NCBI RefSeq assembly: GCF_033441515.1
Contig: NZ_JAWQJT010000003.1
Location: forward strand, 248,001 to 312,000
Length of the DNA stretch: 64,000 bases
Source: Amycolatopsis solani
GTDB taxonomy: Bacteria > Actinomycetota > Actinomycetes > Mycobacteriales > Pseudonocardiaceae
Direction of reading: 5' to 3'
The position numbers and the translations under genes were made by a program. The notes under the pieces are model-generated. The model was not told the origin of the DNA, searched no databases, and saw only the letters and a list, made by a program, of their open reading frames with translations. Below, piece by piece: positions 9,001 to 52,600 of the stretch; the first letter of the stretch is position 1, and the number at the start of each line of letters is the position of its first letter.

Positions 9001-12000
9001 CGAAGGTGGCGTCGTCGAGGACGCCGGCGGTGTGCACGACGGCGGTGATCTCGTGCTCGGCGAACACCGCGGCCAGTGCGTCGCGGTCGGTGACGTCGCA
9101 GGCGATGGCGGTGGCGTCGACCCCCAGCTCGGCGATCAGCTCGGCCGCGCCCGGGGTGTCGGGGCCGCGGCGGCCGAGCAGGAGCAGGCGGCGGGCGCCG
9201 TGCTCGGCGACCAGGTGCCGGGCGAGGTGCGTGCCCAGGCCGCCGAGGCCGCCGGTGATGAGGACGGTGCCGTCGAAGCGGCCTTCGGACGCGGGCGCGA
9301 CGGCGGCCCGGCCAAGCCGCGGGACGTGCAGCCGTCCCTCGCGGACGAGGACCTTCGGCTCCCCGAGCGCGACGGCCGCGCCGAGGAGAGTGTCGTCGCC
9401 GGTGTCGACGAGGGTGATGCGGCCAGGCTGTTCGGCCTGCGCGGAGCCGAGGAGCCCCCAGATCGGCGCGGTGGCGAGGTCGGTCGAACTGGCGACGACG
9501 ACCAGGTGCGAGTCGGCGAACCGCTCGTCTTCCAGCCAGGCCTGGACGGTGTGCAGGACTTCGCGCAGGGTCTCCCGGACGCCCTCAGGAGTCTCGCCGC
9601 GCACCTCCGGCCGGTAGAGCACGGGGGGTCGTGAGTGATGAGGAGGGTTAGAACCGTCCTTTTCACTCACGAGGACCCGGGCGTCGGGGGTCGGGGCGGG
9701 TTCGAGGGCCGGCCAGTCCACCGGACCGGTCGCCACGCTCGCCGGGACCGGGACCCAGTCCACGGTGAACAGCGACTCGTGACGCGCCTTCCGCCCCGCG
9801 CCGGTGCTCGCGGCGACCGGGCGCAACGCGAGCGCTTCCACCGACGCCACCGGTTCGCCCGCGGTGTCGGTGACCTCGATCGCCACCGACACCGGGTCGG
9901 CCGCGTCGATCCGGACCCGCAGCGCCGACGCGCCCGGAGCGTGCAGTGTCACGCCCGACCACGCGAACGGCAGCAGCCGGTCGGCGTCCTCGCCGCGGTC
10001 CGCCGCGCCCAAGGCGTGCAACGCCGCGTCGAGGACCGCCGGGTGCAGGCCGTACCCGTCCGTCGCGCCCGCCTTCCGCGGGGCGGTCACCTCGGCGAAC
10101 ACCTCGGTGCCGCGGCGCCAGACGCGCTCCAGGCCCTGGAACGCCGGGCCGTAGCCGAACCCGGCCGACGCCAGGCCGTCGTAGAAGCCGGTGAGGTCGA
10201 CTTCCTCCGCGTCCGCGGGCGGCCACGCGAGCGGCACCGGATCCGCGGCCCCGGGAGCGAGCACACCCCCGGCGTGGCGCTCCCAGGCCGTGTCCTCGGG
10301 TTCGTCCTCGAGTCGCGAGTGGACGGTGAACGCGCGCCGCCCGGTGTGGTCCGGGGCGCCGACGAGCAGCTGCACCCGCACGCCGCCGCGCTCGGGCAGG
10401 ACGAGCGGCGCTTCCAGCGTCAGCTCGGCGACGCGCGGGCAGCCGACGCTGTCGCCCGCCCGCATCGCCAGTTCCAGGAAAGCCGTGCCGGGCAACAGGA
10501 TTGCGCCCATGACGACGTGGTCGGCCAGCCACGGCGTAGCCGCCGCGGAGAGCCGGCCGGTGAACAGGTGGCCCTCGCCGTCGGCGAGTCCGGTGGCCGC
10601 GCCGAGCAACGGGTGCCCGGCCGCGGTCAGGCCGAGCCCGCCCGGGTCGGTCGCCGCCGCGCCCGGCGGGGTCGCTTCCGGCCAGTAGCGCTCGTGCTGG
10701 AAGGCGTACGTCGGGAGGTCGATCAGCCGCGCGCCGGTACCCGCGTGGAATCCGGCCCAGTCCACCGGTACGCCGGCGACGTGCAGCGCCCCGACCGCCG
10801 CCGTGATGGTGTGCTCCTCCGGCCGTCCGGCCCGCAGCAGCGGCACGCACTTGACGTCGTCGCCCGCCCCGCTCGCCATCGCGCTCAGCACGCCGTCGGG
10901 GCCCAGCTCGACGAACCGGGTGACGTCCCGCTCGGCCAGCCAGCGCACGCCGTCGCCGAAGCGGACGGCGTCCCGCACGTGCGACACCCAGTACGCCGGG
11001 TCCTGCAGTTCGCCCGCCGCCGCGACGCGGCCGGTGCGGTTCGAGACGACCGGCAGTTCCGCCTCGCGGTAGGAGATCCGGCGCGCGACCGCGGCGAATT
11101 CGCCGAGCATCGGTTCCATCCGCGCCGAGTGGAAGGCGTGGCTGACGCGCAGCCGCTTGGTCCGCCGGTCGCCCAGCGCGGTTTCGAGGGCGTCGATGGC
11201 GGCCGCGTCACCGGAGAACACCACCGAGTCCGGCCCGTTGACCGCGGCCAGCGAGACCTCCGGCCCGGTGATCAGCTCGAGCGCTTCGGCTTCGGTGATT
11301 TCGGCGGCCAGCATCGCGCCGCCGGGCGGCAGCTCCTGCATGAGCCGGCCACGGGCGGTGACGAGCGCGCAGGCGTCCGCCAGCGAGACCACGCCGGCGA
11401 CGTGCGCCGCGGCCAGCTCGCCGACGGAGTGCCCGAGCAGGTAGTCCGGCTTCAGCCCCCACGACTCGGTGAGCCGGAAGAGCGCGACCTCCAGCGCGAA
11501 CAGCGCCGCTTGCGCGTACTTCGTCTCGTCGAGCCCTTCACCCGAGCGCACGACGTCGGTGAGCGCCGGGTCGAGGTGGGCGCACGCGGCGTCCCACGCC
11601 TCGGCGAACGCCGGGAACGCCTCGCGCAGTTCGAGGCCCATCCCGGCCCGCTGCGCGCCCTGCCCGGTGAACAGGAACGCGACGGCGCCGGACGTGGCGA
11701 CGCCCGACGCGCCACTCCCCTCGGCCAGCGCGGTCAGCCCGGCCCGCAGATCGTCCACAGTGGAGCCGGTGACGACCGCGCGGTGCGGCAGCGCGGCCCG
11801 CGAAACCCCCAAGGAGTAGGCGAGGTCCAGCGGCGACTGGTCCACAACGGACAGCAAGCGGCCGGCCTGGCCGCGCAGCCCGGCGGCGTTCTTCCCGGAC
11901 ACCGGCCAGGCGAACACGCCCGGAACCCGCGGTGACGGCTCGACGACGGCCTCGACCGCCGGAGCCTGCTCCAGGATGACGTGCGCGTTGGTCCCGCTCA

Positions 12001-49600: not shown

Positions 49601-52600
49601 AGGCGTTGGCGGCGGCGTAGTTGCCCTGCCCGGCCGAGCCGACCGTGCCGGCGACCGAGGAGAAGACGATGAACGCCGACAGGTCGAGGTCGCGCGTCAG
49701 CTCGTCGAGGTGGACGACGGCGTCGGCCTTGGGCCGCAGCACGGTGTCCAGGCGGGCCGGGTCGAGCGAGGCGACGACGCCGTCGTCGAGGACGCCCGCG
49801 GTGTGCACGACACCCCGCAGCGGGTGCGCGGCCGGGATCCGGGCGAGCACGGCGGCGAGCTGGTCGCGGTCGGCGGCGTCGCAGGCTTCGATCGTGACGT
49901 CCACGCCCAGTTCGTCGCGCAGTTCGGCCGCGCCAGGGGCGTCGGGGCCGCGGCGGCTGGTGAGCACGAGGTGCCGGACGCCGTGGGTGCGCACGAAGTG
50001 CCGGGCCAGCTCGCGGCCGAGCCCGCCGGTGCCGCCGGTGATGAGCACGGTGCCGTCGGGTTCCCAGCGCGGCGGCAGGGTCAGCACGATCTTGCCGACG
50101 TGCTTCGCGCGGCTCATGTGCCGGAACGCGGCCGGGGCCTGGCGCAGGTCCCAGCTCCGGATCGGCAGCGGCGTCAGGACGCCGTCGGCGAAGAGCCGCA
50201 GCAGTTCGCCGAGCAGTTCGGCCGTGCGGTCGGGCCCGGCCTCGCCGAGGTCGAAGGCGCGGTAGCGGATCCGCGGCAGCGCGGCGGCGTCGCGGATGTC
50301 GGTCTTGCCCATCTCGAGGAACCGGCCGCCGTCGGCGAGCAGGTTCATCGAGGCGTCGGCGAACTCGCCCGCCAGCGCGTTGAGGACGACGTCGACGCCC
50401 GCGCCGCCGGTGACGCGGCGGAAGTCGGCTTCGAACTCCAGCGAGCGCGAGGAGGCGATGTGGTCGTCGGCGACGCCGAGTTCGCGCAGGACGTGCTGCT
50501 TGCCCGCGCTCGCCGTCGCGAAGACCTCGGCGCCGAGGTGGCGGGCGAGCTGGATGGCGGCCATGCCGACGCCGCCGGCGCCCGCGTGGACGAGGATCTT
50601 CTGGCCGGGCTTGAGGTTCGCGAGGTCGACGAGTGCGTAGTACGCGGTCAGGAACACCAGCGGGACGGACGCGGCGGTGCGCGCGGACCACCCGGCGGGC
50701 ACCGGCGCGAGGTAGCGCGGGTCCGAGACGCTGTGGGTGCCGAACGAGCCGGGCAGCATGCCGAAGACGCGTTCGCCGACGCGGGCCGGGTCCACGCCCT
50801 CGCCGGTCGTCTCGATCACGCCGGCGCCTTCCGCGCCCAGGTCACCGAGCTTGCCCGGGTACATGCCGAGCACGGACAGGACGTCGCGGAAGTTGAGCCC
50901 GGCCGCTTCGAGGCGGACCCGGACGTGCCCGGCGGGCGGGTCGGCGAGCACGTCCGGGCACGCTTCGGCGCCCAGGTCGTCGATGCCCGCGGGACCGGCG
51001 GTGAGTCGCCACGCCGGTACCGCGGGAGGCAGGAGGTCGCCGTTGCCGGCCAGGCGGCCGAGCCGGGCGACGCGGACGCTTTCGCCGCGGACGGCGAACT
51101 GGGGTTCCCCGGAGACGACGAACCCGGTGCCGGGCAGCGCCGCGCCGGCTTCGAGGTCGACGAGCACGAACCGGCCGGGCTGTTCGGACTGCGCGGACCG
51201 CACGAGCCCCCACGCCGCGGCGGCGGCGAGGTCGGCGACGCGGTCCCCCGGCTCGACGGCGACAGCTTCCCGGGTCACGAACACGACCCGCTGGGCCCGC
51301 TCGTCGGCGTCCTGCAGCACGCTCAGCGCCCGCGCGGTGACCTCCCGGACGGCGGCCAGCAGGTCTGCCGCGGCCGGTCGTGAGTGATAAGTCGGGTTAG
51401 AACCCGACTTATCACTCACGACGCCGAGCGGGACCAGGAGGACGTCCGGTTCGAGGGCCAGTGCTGTTTCGAGGTCCGCGCACGGGCGGGCGACGGACGC
51501 CAGGAGCGGGTCGTCGCCGAGGAGGGCCCACGTGCCCGCCGGCGCGTCCTTGGCCAGGGCCGCCGGGACCCACGCCAGCTGGTAGAGGGAGTCGTCGTCG
51601 GCGTCACGCTGGGCCGCTTCGCGCAGCTGGAGGGACTGGACCGTCAGCACCGGCGCGCCGGTCTCGTCGGTGACGGCGATGGCCACCGACTCGCGGTCCA
51701 CCGGCGTGATCCGGGCGCGGATCCGGGTCGCGCCCGAGGCGTGCAGGGACACCCCGGACCACGCGAACGGCAGGCCGCCCGCGACCGTGTCGAGCCGGTG
51801 CAGGGCGTGCAGGACCGCGTCGAACAGAGCGGGGTGCAGGCCGTAGTCGCCGTCGGCCTCGCCGGGCAGCTCTGCCTCGGCGAGCAGCGCGTCGCCGTCC
51901 AGCCAGGCCCGGGTCAGGCCGCGGAACGCGGGCCCGTAGGCCAGGCCGGTCGCGGCCAGCTCGGGGTACACAGTGGACACGTCGAGCTCGGTGGCGCCGG
52001 ACGGCGGCCACTCGCCCGCCACCGCCGCGGCCGGGTGCTCGCCGACCGCGACGAACCCCGCCGCGTGCTGCACCCACTCGGCGTCCGGGCCGGTGCCGCG
52101 CGAGGAAATGGTCAGCTCGCGGCGCCCGGCGTGGTCCGGGCCGCCGGCGGCGATCTGCAGCAGCACCGGCTCGTCCGGACGCAGCCACAGCGGCGCGGCG
52201 ATGGAGAGGCTTTCCACGGCGGAGCAGCCGACCTGGTCCGCCGCGCGGACGGCCAGGTCGAGGAACCCGGTGCCGGGGAACAGCACGTGCCCGCCGACGA
52301 CGTGGTCGGCCAGCCACGGCTGCGCGTCTCGCGACAGCAGCCCGGACAGCACGACACCGCCGGAGTCGGCGAGGTCGACCGCGAAGTCCAGCAGCGGGTG
52401 CCCGGCCGGGGTGAGCCCGAGGCGTTCGACGGCGCCGCGGCCCGGGACGACCCGCGGCCAGTAGTGCTGCCGCTGGAAAGCGTACGTGGGCAGGGTGATC
52501 CGCCGGGCGCCGGGGAACCACGGCGTCCAGTCGACGTCGGCGCCGGCGACGTGCAGCCGCGCCAGTCCACTGAGGACGGACTCGGTTTCCGGGCGGTCCT

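Follow-up and report, generated by a model that had tools for sequence, protein, structure and literature searches.

How does one short hairpin come to stand inside two polyketide synthase (PKS) genes and again in the gap between two converging genes? The question is raised by a stretch of 64,000 nucleotides from Amycolatopsis solani (assembly GCF_033441515.1, contig NZ_JAWQJT010000003.1, positions 248,001 to 312,000), here called the window, in which a first-pass annotation made from the letters had marked three copies of a palindromic element and had read them as insertions of a mobile hairpin. The coordinates of the three copies hold (Table 1). As laid out below, they belong to a large family of 44-bp hairpins that is dispersed over the host genome and is placed with respect to stop codons, and whose interior differs between related species at the same sites.

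Results

All three cores share the layout TCGTGAGTG-N8-GGTTAGAACC-N8-CAC(T/C)CACGA, with CACTCACGA as the usual right end. The N8 arms pair perfectly in the copy at 25070 (TTTAGTCG), where the paired arms reach out to 25065-25118, and in the copy at 51378 (ATAAGTCG), which spans 51377-51422 when the flanking G/C is counted; in the copy at 9629 they read ATGAGGAG and AAAAGGAC and pair imperfectly. Complementarity of the arms is complete (100%) in the copies at 25065 and 51377; for 9619-9682 it is 77% over 31 nt. The pattern GTGAGTG-N{4,34}-CACTCAC has three matches in the window against 0.01 expected, and none of 100 shuffles reaches three, such that chance is excluded as the source of three such structures within 64 kb. 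The centre GGTTAGAACC alone, with one mismatch allowed, is a weaker signal (three window matches, shuffle mean 0.61, three reached in 4 of 100 shuffles). Rfam at gathering scores gave no match at the hairpins.

Table 1. Coordinates of the hairpin copies and adjoining features, counted from the first letter of the window
Feature	Position	Strand	Setting
Copy 1, core	9629-9672	+	inside PKS gene (predicted gene 2-13339, - strand), between dehydratase (DH) and ketoreductase (KR)
Copy 2, core	25070-25113	+	intergenic, convergent genes: + gene ends at 25010, PKS - gene ends at 25133
Copy 3, core	51378-51421	+	inside PKS gene (predicted gene 34608-59723, - strand), between DH and enoylreductase (ER)
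Flank extension CTCGGTGCAAGGTGG	25114-25128	-	one-sided; resembles flank of about ten other copies
Flank extension GTCTGCCGCGGCCGG	51363-51377	+	also found beside intergenic copies at other host sites
Conventional GC hairpin with T-run	25025-25055	+	behind + strand gene; separate from the 44-bp repeat

In the host genome (10.28 Mb, four contigs) the centre GGTTAGAACC occurs 175 times, against 2 occurrences of a reversed control, and the left end together with the centre 90 + 84 = 174 times; hence all centres but one have the left end. The first-pass view of a mobile element, in the sense of one dispersed and copied, is thereby borne out, and absence elsewhere in the genome, which it had named as refuting, is ruled out by the same 174 copies. 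We gathered all of them with their flanks. The full 9-bp left end TCGTGAGTG is present in 174/174, seven of its bases being fixed by the search pattern, which contained GTGAGTG of the left end and not TC; the right end is CACTCACGA in 169 copies and CACCCACGA in the other 5. With any interior of 14-40 nt allowed between the ends, 171 of 172 host matches have exactly 44 bp, and the position adjoining the core on each side is invariably G or C. The arms vary: they are perfectly complementary in 126 of the 174 copies, and the arm pairs come in 17 perfect and 41 imperfect types. The dominant type is the perfect TTTAGTCG (49/174), and arm variants one pair apart (TTTA, TTCA, TTGA and TTAA) are each found in perfect pairs. 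Folding of the consensus gives a 20-bp stem closed by a 4-nt loop, with an energy of -35.2 kcal/mol for each strand; across copies the energy has a mean of -34.3 and a range of -39.6 to -21.0 kcal/mol.

Where the copies stand was determined relative to gene ends from a codon-usage gene finder trained on the host genome, not from an annotation. Only 4 of the 174 copies lie inside genes; 75 contain the stop codon of a gene, and the other 95 stand between genes (46 convergent, 48 tandem, namely 25 and 23, and 1 divergent). For 157 of the 170 copies placed at gene ends or past them, a stop codon lies in the hairpin or at most 20 bp off; 111 of the 170 separate convergent genes, and the 60 that face gene starts do so at a distance of 17-400 bp. 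Random 44-mers from the same genome fall mostly into coding sequence (5227 of 5910); of the 683 non-coding ones, 241 cover a stop or lie close to one and 177 are in divergent positions. In Amycolatopsis sp. 2-2, 58 of 66 copies are over or near a stop, 43 are convergent and 3 divergent. Where a gene ends with its stop inside the hairpin, that stop is the TGA in TCG-TGA, six bases into the element, in 59 of 87 cases (P 5e-11 against one third). Placement and shape match those of a bidirectional terminator lacking a U-run. With 170 of the 174 copies at gene ends or past them, gene invasion is not the main habit of the element, and the first-pass reading is not supported in this respect.

The strongest property of the family is not visible in the window: at sites shared between species the arms are replaced with pairing mostly kept. 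Amycolatopsis sp. 2-2, in which a protein neighbouring an element is 98% identical to its host counterpart, carries 144 elements, from which 70 loci were taken; 66 passed the element finder and 4 were dropped. Set against the host loci collected, both flanks matched at 31, one side at 7 and none at 28. At 30 of the 31 both-flank loci the host has an element as well, and one host site is without it. The arms differ at 30/30 shared sites. The arms at these sites comprise 240 base pairs: 128 are unchanged between the species and 81 are changed on both sides with Watson-Crick pairing in both species, while 29 pair in one species only and 2 in neither, so that paired changes make up 81 of the 112 changed pairs. 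The centre has the same orientation at 14 of these sites and the opposite one at 16. In sp. 2-2 the left arm is TTTAGGGC in 69 of 100 places listed. Whether by re-insertion or by overwriting, the hairpin interior is replaced between species. The 12-nt flanks are at least 9/12 identical on both sides at 4 of the shared sites, on one side at 15 and on neither at 11.

All four gene-internal copies are in PKS or nonribosomal peptide synthetase (NRPS) genes, in one orientation and phase, and read V-S-x-x-(S/D)-G-S-N-P. The single tolerated frame and orientation proposed at first pass is thus common to all of them, and direct reading agrees that five of six frames are closed in the copy at 51378; family-wide, 99 of 174 copies have no open frame among the six. 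Both window copies and a third one (L082) lie in or just before the PKS part matched by SpnB_Rossmann (PF22953), which we take to be the structural half of the KR; the fourth (L156) lies in an NRPS condensation domain (PF00668). As to the earlier claim that the coding copies sit in the structural half of a KR, the position is thus matched by the domain search, with PF22953 taken as that half.

Empty sites, a check proposed with the idea of insertion, were indeed found when orthologous modules from seven other species were compared. By DNA alignment, the loop at 51378 is short and without the hairpin in G017, G050, G061 and G066 (the stretch around the copy has 901 bases in the host and 856 in G017, a difference of 45 nt), and it is filled by unrelated palindromes in G025, G042 and G069. 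At 9629 the loop holds no insert in G042, G025, G017, G050, G061 and G066 and another palindrome in G069. The hairpin-free loops confirm insertion. The hairpin-encoded peptide is absent from the orthologous loops examined; unrelated PKSs were not searched for the peptide with non-palindromic DNA. At the intergenic site the conventional GC hairpin with its T-run is kept in 8/8 aligned genomes (host and seven others), and what stands next to it is the 44-bp element in the host, other palindromes in G017, G050 and G042, no palindrome in G025 and G069, and other sequence in G061 and G066. The relatives' own palindrome families (TGAATGA..TCATTCA, CTGAAGGGGAC.. and TCGTGAAGGCCACCTTGAGG..) were seen in the same KR loops or at the intergenic site (L365, L366, L368, L399, L400, L402, L404).

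At the 3' end of aroA, compared at 30 loci, three have the element (host, Amycolatopsis sp. 2-2 and G051), with three different arm types, and 24 loci covered in full are without it, as judged by eye; L210 was covered in part, and L212 and L213 matched on one side only. L210 (G066) has about 1.15 kb between the gene ends there, including sequence that by eye resembles a transposase gene.

Beyond the host, the left half with the centre is present in 58 of 80 genomes of the genus, and the ends with any 14-40 nt interior in 72 of 80, with copy numbers from 0 to hundreds. Over the family Pseudonocardiaceae the latter pattern is found in 172 of 390 genomes and in 22 of 46 genera, with controls of 0 in nearly all genomes (18 in G322, which has 227 matches, and 30 in G386, which has 71). 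The exact length of 44 bp is kept in 1365 of 1439 matches summed over the family genomes in both scans, for example in G051 (182/182) and, from other genera, G329 (135/135) and G352 (76/78); genomes with few copies have a lower share (5/9 in G013, 2/6 in G027). In other families of the order, elements of exactly 44 bp were found in 4 of 318 sampled genomes. The interior in other genera is unrelated: five of seven classified loci have exactly 44 bp and five lie no more than 20 bp from a stop, and with five further Amycolatopsis loci added the counts become 8/12 and 9/12.

A target-site duplication, which had been put forward as a check on mobility, is not clear among the flanks of the 174 copies: direct flank matches of k = 1-11 are not clearly above shuffles (10 versus 8.0 at k = 4, 1 versus 0.3 at k = 6), and none is evident by eye at two sites set beside empty counterparts. 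The Y1_Tnp domain (PF01797) was found, at an E-value of 0.001, in 0 of 80 genomes of the genus including the host, while controls such as E. coli match (5/14); mobilisation by a REP-associated tyrosine transposase (RAYT) of the IS200 kind (REP, repetitive extragenic palindrome) is thus rejected as far as PF01797 shows. No conserved GTAG or CGTC end tag stands beside the core in the host copies. The genes between close copy pairs, among those listed, are ordinary-looking, with no family search run on them.

For the outer word on its own we used a sample of host sequence (the window and loci L084-L183, about 0.91 Mb). In it, 226/226 occurrences of TCGTGAGTG are within elements, and no single one was found where 5.3 were expected. 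This yields no parent transposon in the sample, long-spaced ends not having been searched genome-wide. A DNA uptake word would be over-represented singly too, and such a role is unlikely here because every sampled occurrence of TCGTGAGTG belongs to an element; we rejected it. Its total lack outside elements perhaps reflects avoidance or codon constraint. Flank motifs were also considered as target motifs and rejected, being nearly restricted to elements in the sample: TCTGCCGCGGC adjoins an element in 8/8 occurrences, and TCGG[TC]GCAAG in 4/5. One-sided 15-nt extensions such as GTCTGCCGCGGCTGG and CTCGGTGCAAGTGG adjoin the core at about two dozen host copies, and one host copy has both extension types, one on each side.

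Three side observations concern other repeats. A related hairpin with arms AGAAACAG and the same GTGAGTG..CACTCAC ends is listed once in the host (G000:C1:1656014-1656048) and is the common type among the copies listed for G006 and G067. A second palindrome, CTTTCACGTGAAAG, occurs eight times in the PKS genes of the window (4204, 4237, 18705, 18738, 35930, 40895, 40928 and 56009), four times preceded by a nearly identical CGTCCGG(G/A)TCCCA, and four times elsewhere in 0.85 Mb of host sequence. Finally, the Rfam family ASpks (RF01782) has 10 matches in the window between 2054 and 63358 that recur along the PKS genes and are probably conserved PKS coding sequence, not RNA.

Discussion

The dispersal of the hairpin, its absence at orthologous sites, its placement at stop codons and the replacement of its arms with pairing mostly kept are observed directly. 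To explain them, we propose, with a probability of about two in three, that the hairpin is a copied cassette which acts as a bidirectional stop and terminator and is repeatedly overwritten, the PKS copies being tolerated by-products. The cassette would consist of fixed 9-bp inverted ends (TCGTGAGTG...CACTCACGA) and a self-complementary interior free to vary, with a nearly constant total of 44 bp. RNA of either strand would form the 20-bp stem, and the TGA at its base would double as a stop for either gene; read from either strand in this way, the hairpin is rather likely to be a bidirectional terminator, or a hairpin protecting 3' ends, without a U-run. Rare copies in permissive PKS or NRPS loops would survive only in one stop-free orientation and frame.

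New copies would be made by a process that recognises the two ends irrespective of what lies between them, and sites already taken would be overwritten from other copies. We consider it very probable that copying proceeds in this manner and that re-copying of occupied sites gave rise to the species-specific arms and the random centre orientation. Such rewriting might be a gene-conversion-like exchange of cassettes, which would keep hundreds of hairpins alike within a species and let them change between species. Elements of 44 bp are too short for ordinary homologous recombination, and quasi-palindrome template switching can correct arms and flip centres. Template switching may add arm correction and centre flips here as well, and alone it cannot make one arm type dominate a genome. 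A putative machinery spread through the Pseudonocardiaceae that identifies the hairpins by their 9-bp ends and 44-bp length and rewrites occupied sites from other copies is a possibility that we put forward tentatively.

Several points weigh against our proposal. The hairpin has no U-run, and the case for termination is drawn from position and fold; where the element stands at 25070, the + strand gene is already followed by a separate hairpin with a T-run. The arms are imperfect in 48 of 174 copies, the proposal offers no account of the one-sided extensions beside the 44-bp element, and the scans above identified no mobilising gene and no clear target duplication. Our own codon-usage gene finder calls a faulty start in places. 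Furthermore, because only 4 of the 30 shared sites have both flanks alike, some of them could reflect repeated insertion nearby, not the overwriting of an ancestral copy.

A purely selfish miniature transposon that inserts anywhere, and of which selection leaves mostly harmless copies at 3' ends, without any role in termination, would accord with the range of copy numbers within the genus, with the insertions into PKS and NRPS genes and with the different palindrome families that occupy the same permissive spots across species. We nevertheless regard it as unlikely in view of the 157 of 170 copies at or within 20 bp of a stop, the 60 copies that face gene starts from 17-400 bp away, the strong preference for the position that puts TGA in frame, and the long stems kept despite arm turnover. 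The opposite possibility, ordinary intrinsic terminators that evolve in place by compensatory mutation and template switching and are immobile now, draws on the 30 sites shared with sp. 2-2, with their paired changes (81/112) and random centre orientation, and on the single-pair variants TTTA, TTCA, TTGA and TTAA that are all found in perfect pairs. It fares worse still, since one arm type dominates each genome (TTTAGTCG in 49/174 host copies, TTTAGGGC in 69 of 100 places listed for sp. 2-2), identical 44-mers stand at dozens of sites, and the empty orthologous sites suggest that the element was gained. That the gene-internal copies were spread by duplication of PKS modules, with the shared peptide as a conserved KR feature, might be suggested by the three of four coding copies in the KR structural region; this can hardly be upheld and is largely refuted, as the fourth copy is in an NRPS condensation domain, orthologous modules have no insert or another palindrome, and the DNA is a genome-wide repeat.

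Set against known systems, the hairpins are dispersed palindromic elements that resemble REPs, Rickettsia palindromic elements (RPEs) and miniature inverted-repeat transposable elements (MITEs) but depart from each of these classes in a tested feature. With REPs and their paired form, REPINs, they share being short, dispersed, extragenic palindromes in many copies (more than 100; here 174, of which 170 are at or beyond gene ends), having two inverted ends that form a long hairpin, and coming in species-specific sequence types. However, REPs are defined by a GTAG (or CGTC) end tetranucleotide in the available part of PMC3733652, a tag that is missing at the hairpin ends, just as Y1_Tnp is missing from the 80 genus genomes. 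REP doublets, moreover, reportedly have a random distribution over extragenic space (PMC3116915, in excerpt), whereas the 44-bp hairpin is placed at stop codons. Like RPEs, it is a palindromic repeat found in frame within protein genes (four copies here); RPEs, in the excerpted text of PMC10969869, measure about 150 bp, form ten families and have 44 integrations in R. conorii genes, whereas our element has 44 bp and is intragenic in only 4 of 174 copies. MITEs, which include the terminator-like SPRITE repeats of pneumococci and are miniature and gene-less with terminal inverted repeats (same excerpt), are matched in size, lack of genes and 9-bp terminal inverted repeats (left in 174/174, exact right in 169/174), but our element shows no clear target duplication, no parent transposon was identified in the sample, and its interior is almost fully palindromic and nearly always brings the total to 44 bp.

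As regards termination, a class of U-lacking hairpins and 55 bidirectional ends have been described in Streptomyces clavuligerus (PMC8269248, in the part available). Such I-shaped or bidirectional terminators resemble our element in being stable hairpins just past the stop, without a U-run and often between convergent genes; they differ in that the same part of that paper does not present them as a single dispersed sequence copied at a constant length. In Neisseria, the DNA uptake sequence (DUS) forms inverted word pairs in putative terminators and has lineage-specific variants (PMC3630211, in excerpt). In the 44-bp hairpin, by contrast, TCGTGAGTG is never single in the sample, and the outer word is fixed with a variable inside. 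A description of the 44-bp hairpin family was not found in the open-access literature searched, among the matches listed.

The 44-bp hairpins are thus a large repeat family of antibiotic-producing actinomycetes. They join topics that are usually kept separate, namely mobile palindromes, transcription termination in GC-rich genomes and insertions into PKS and NRPS loops. The turnover at shared sites makes the genome-wide homogenisation of a 44-bp repeat without a RAYT a testable question.

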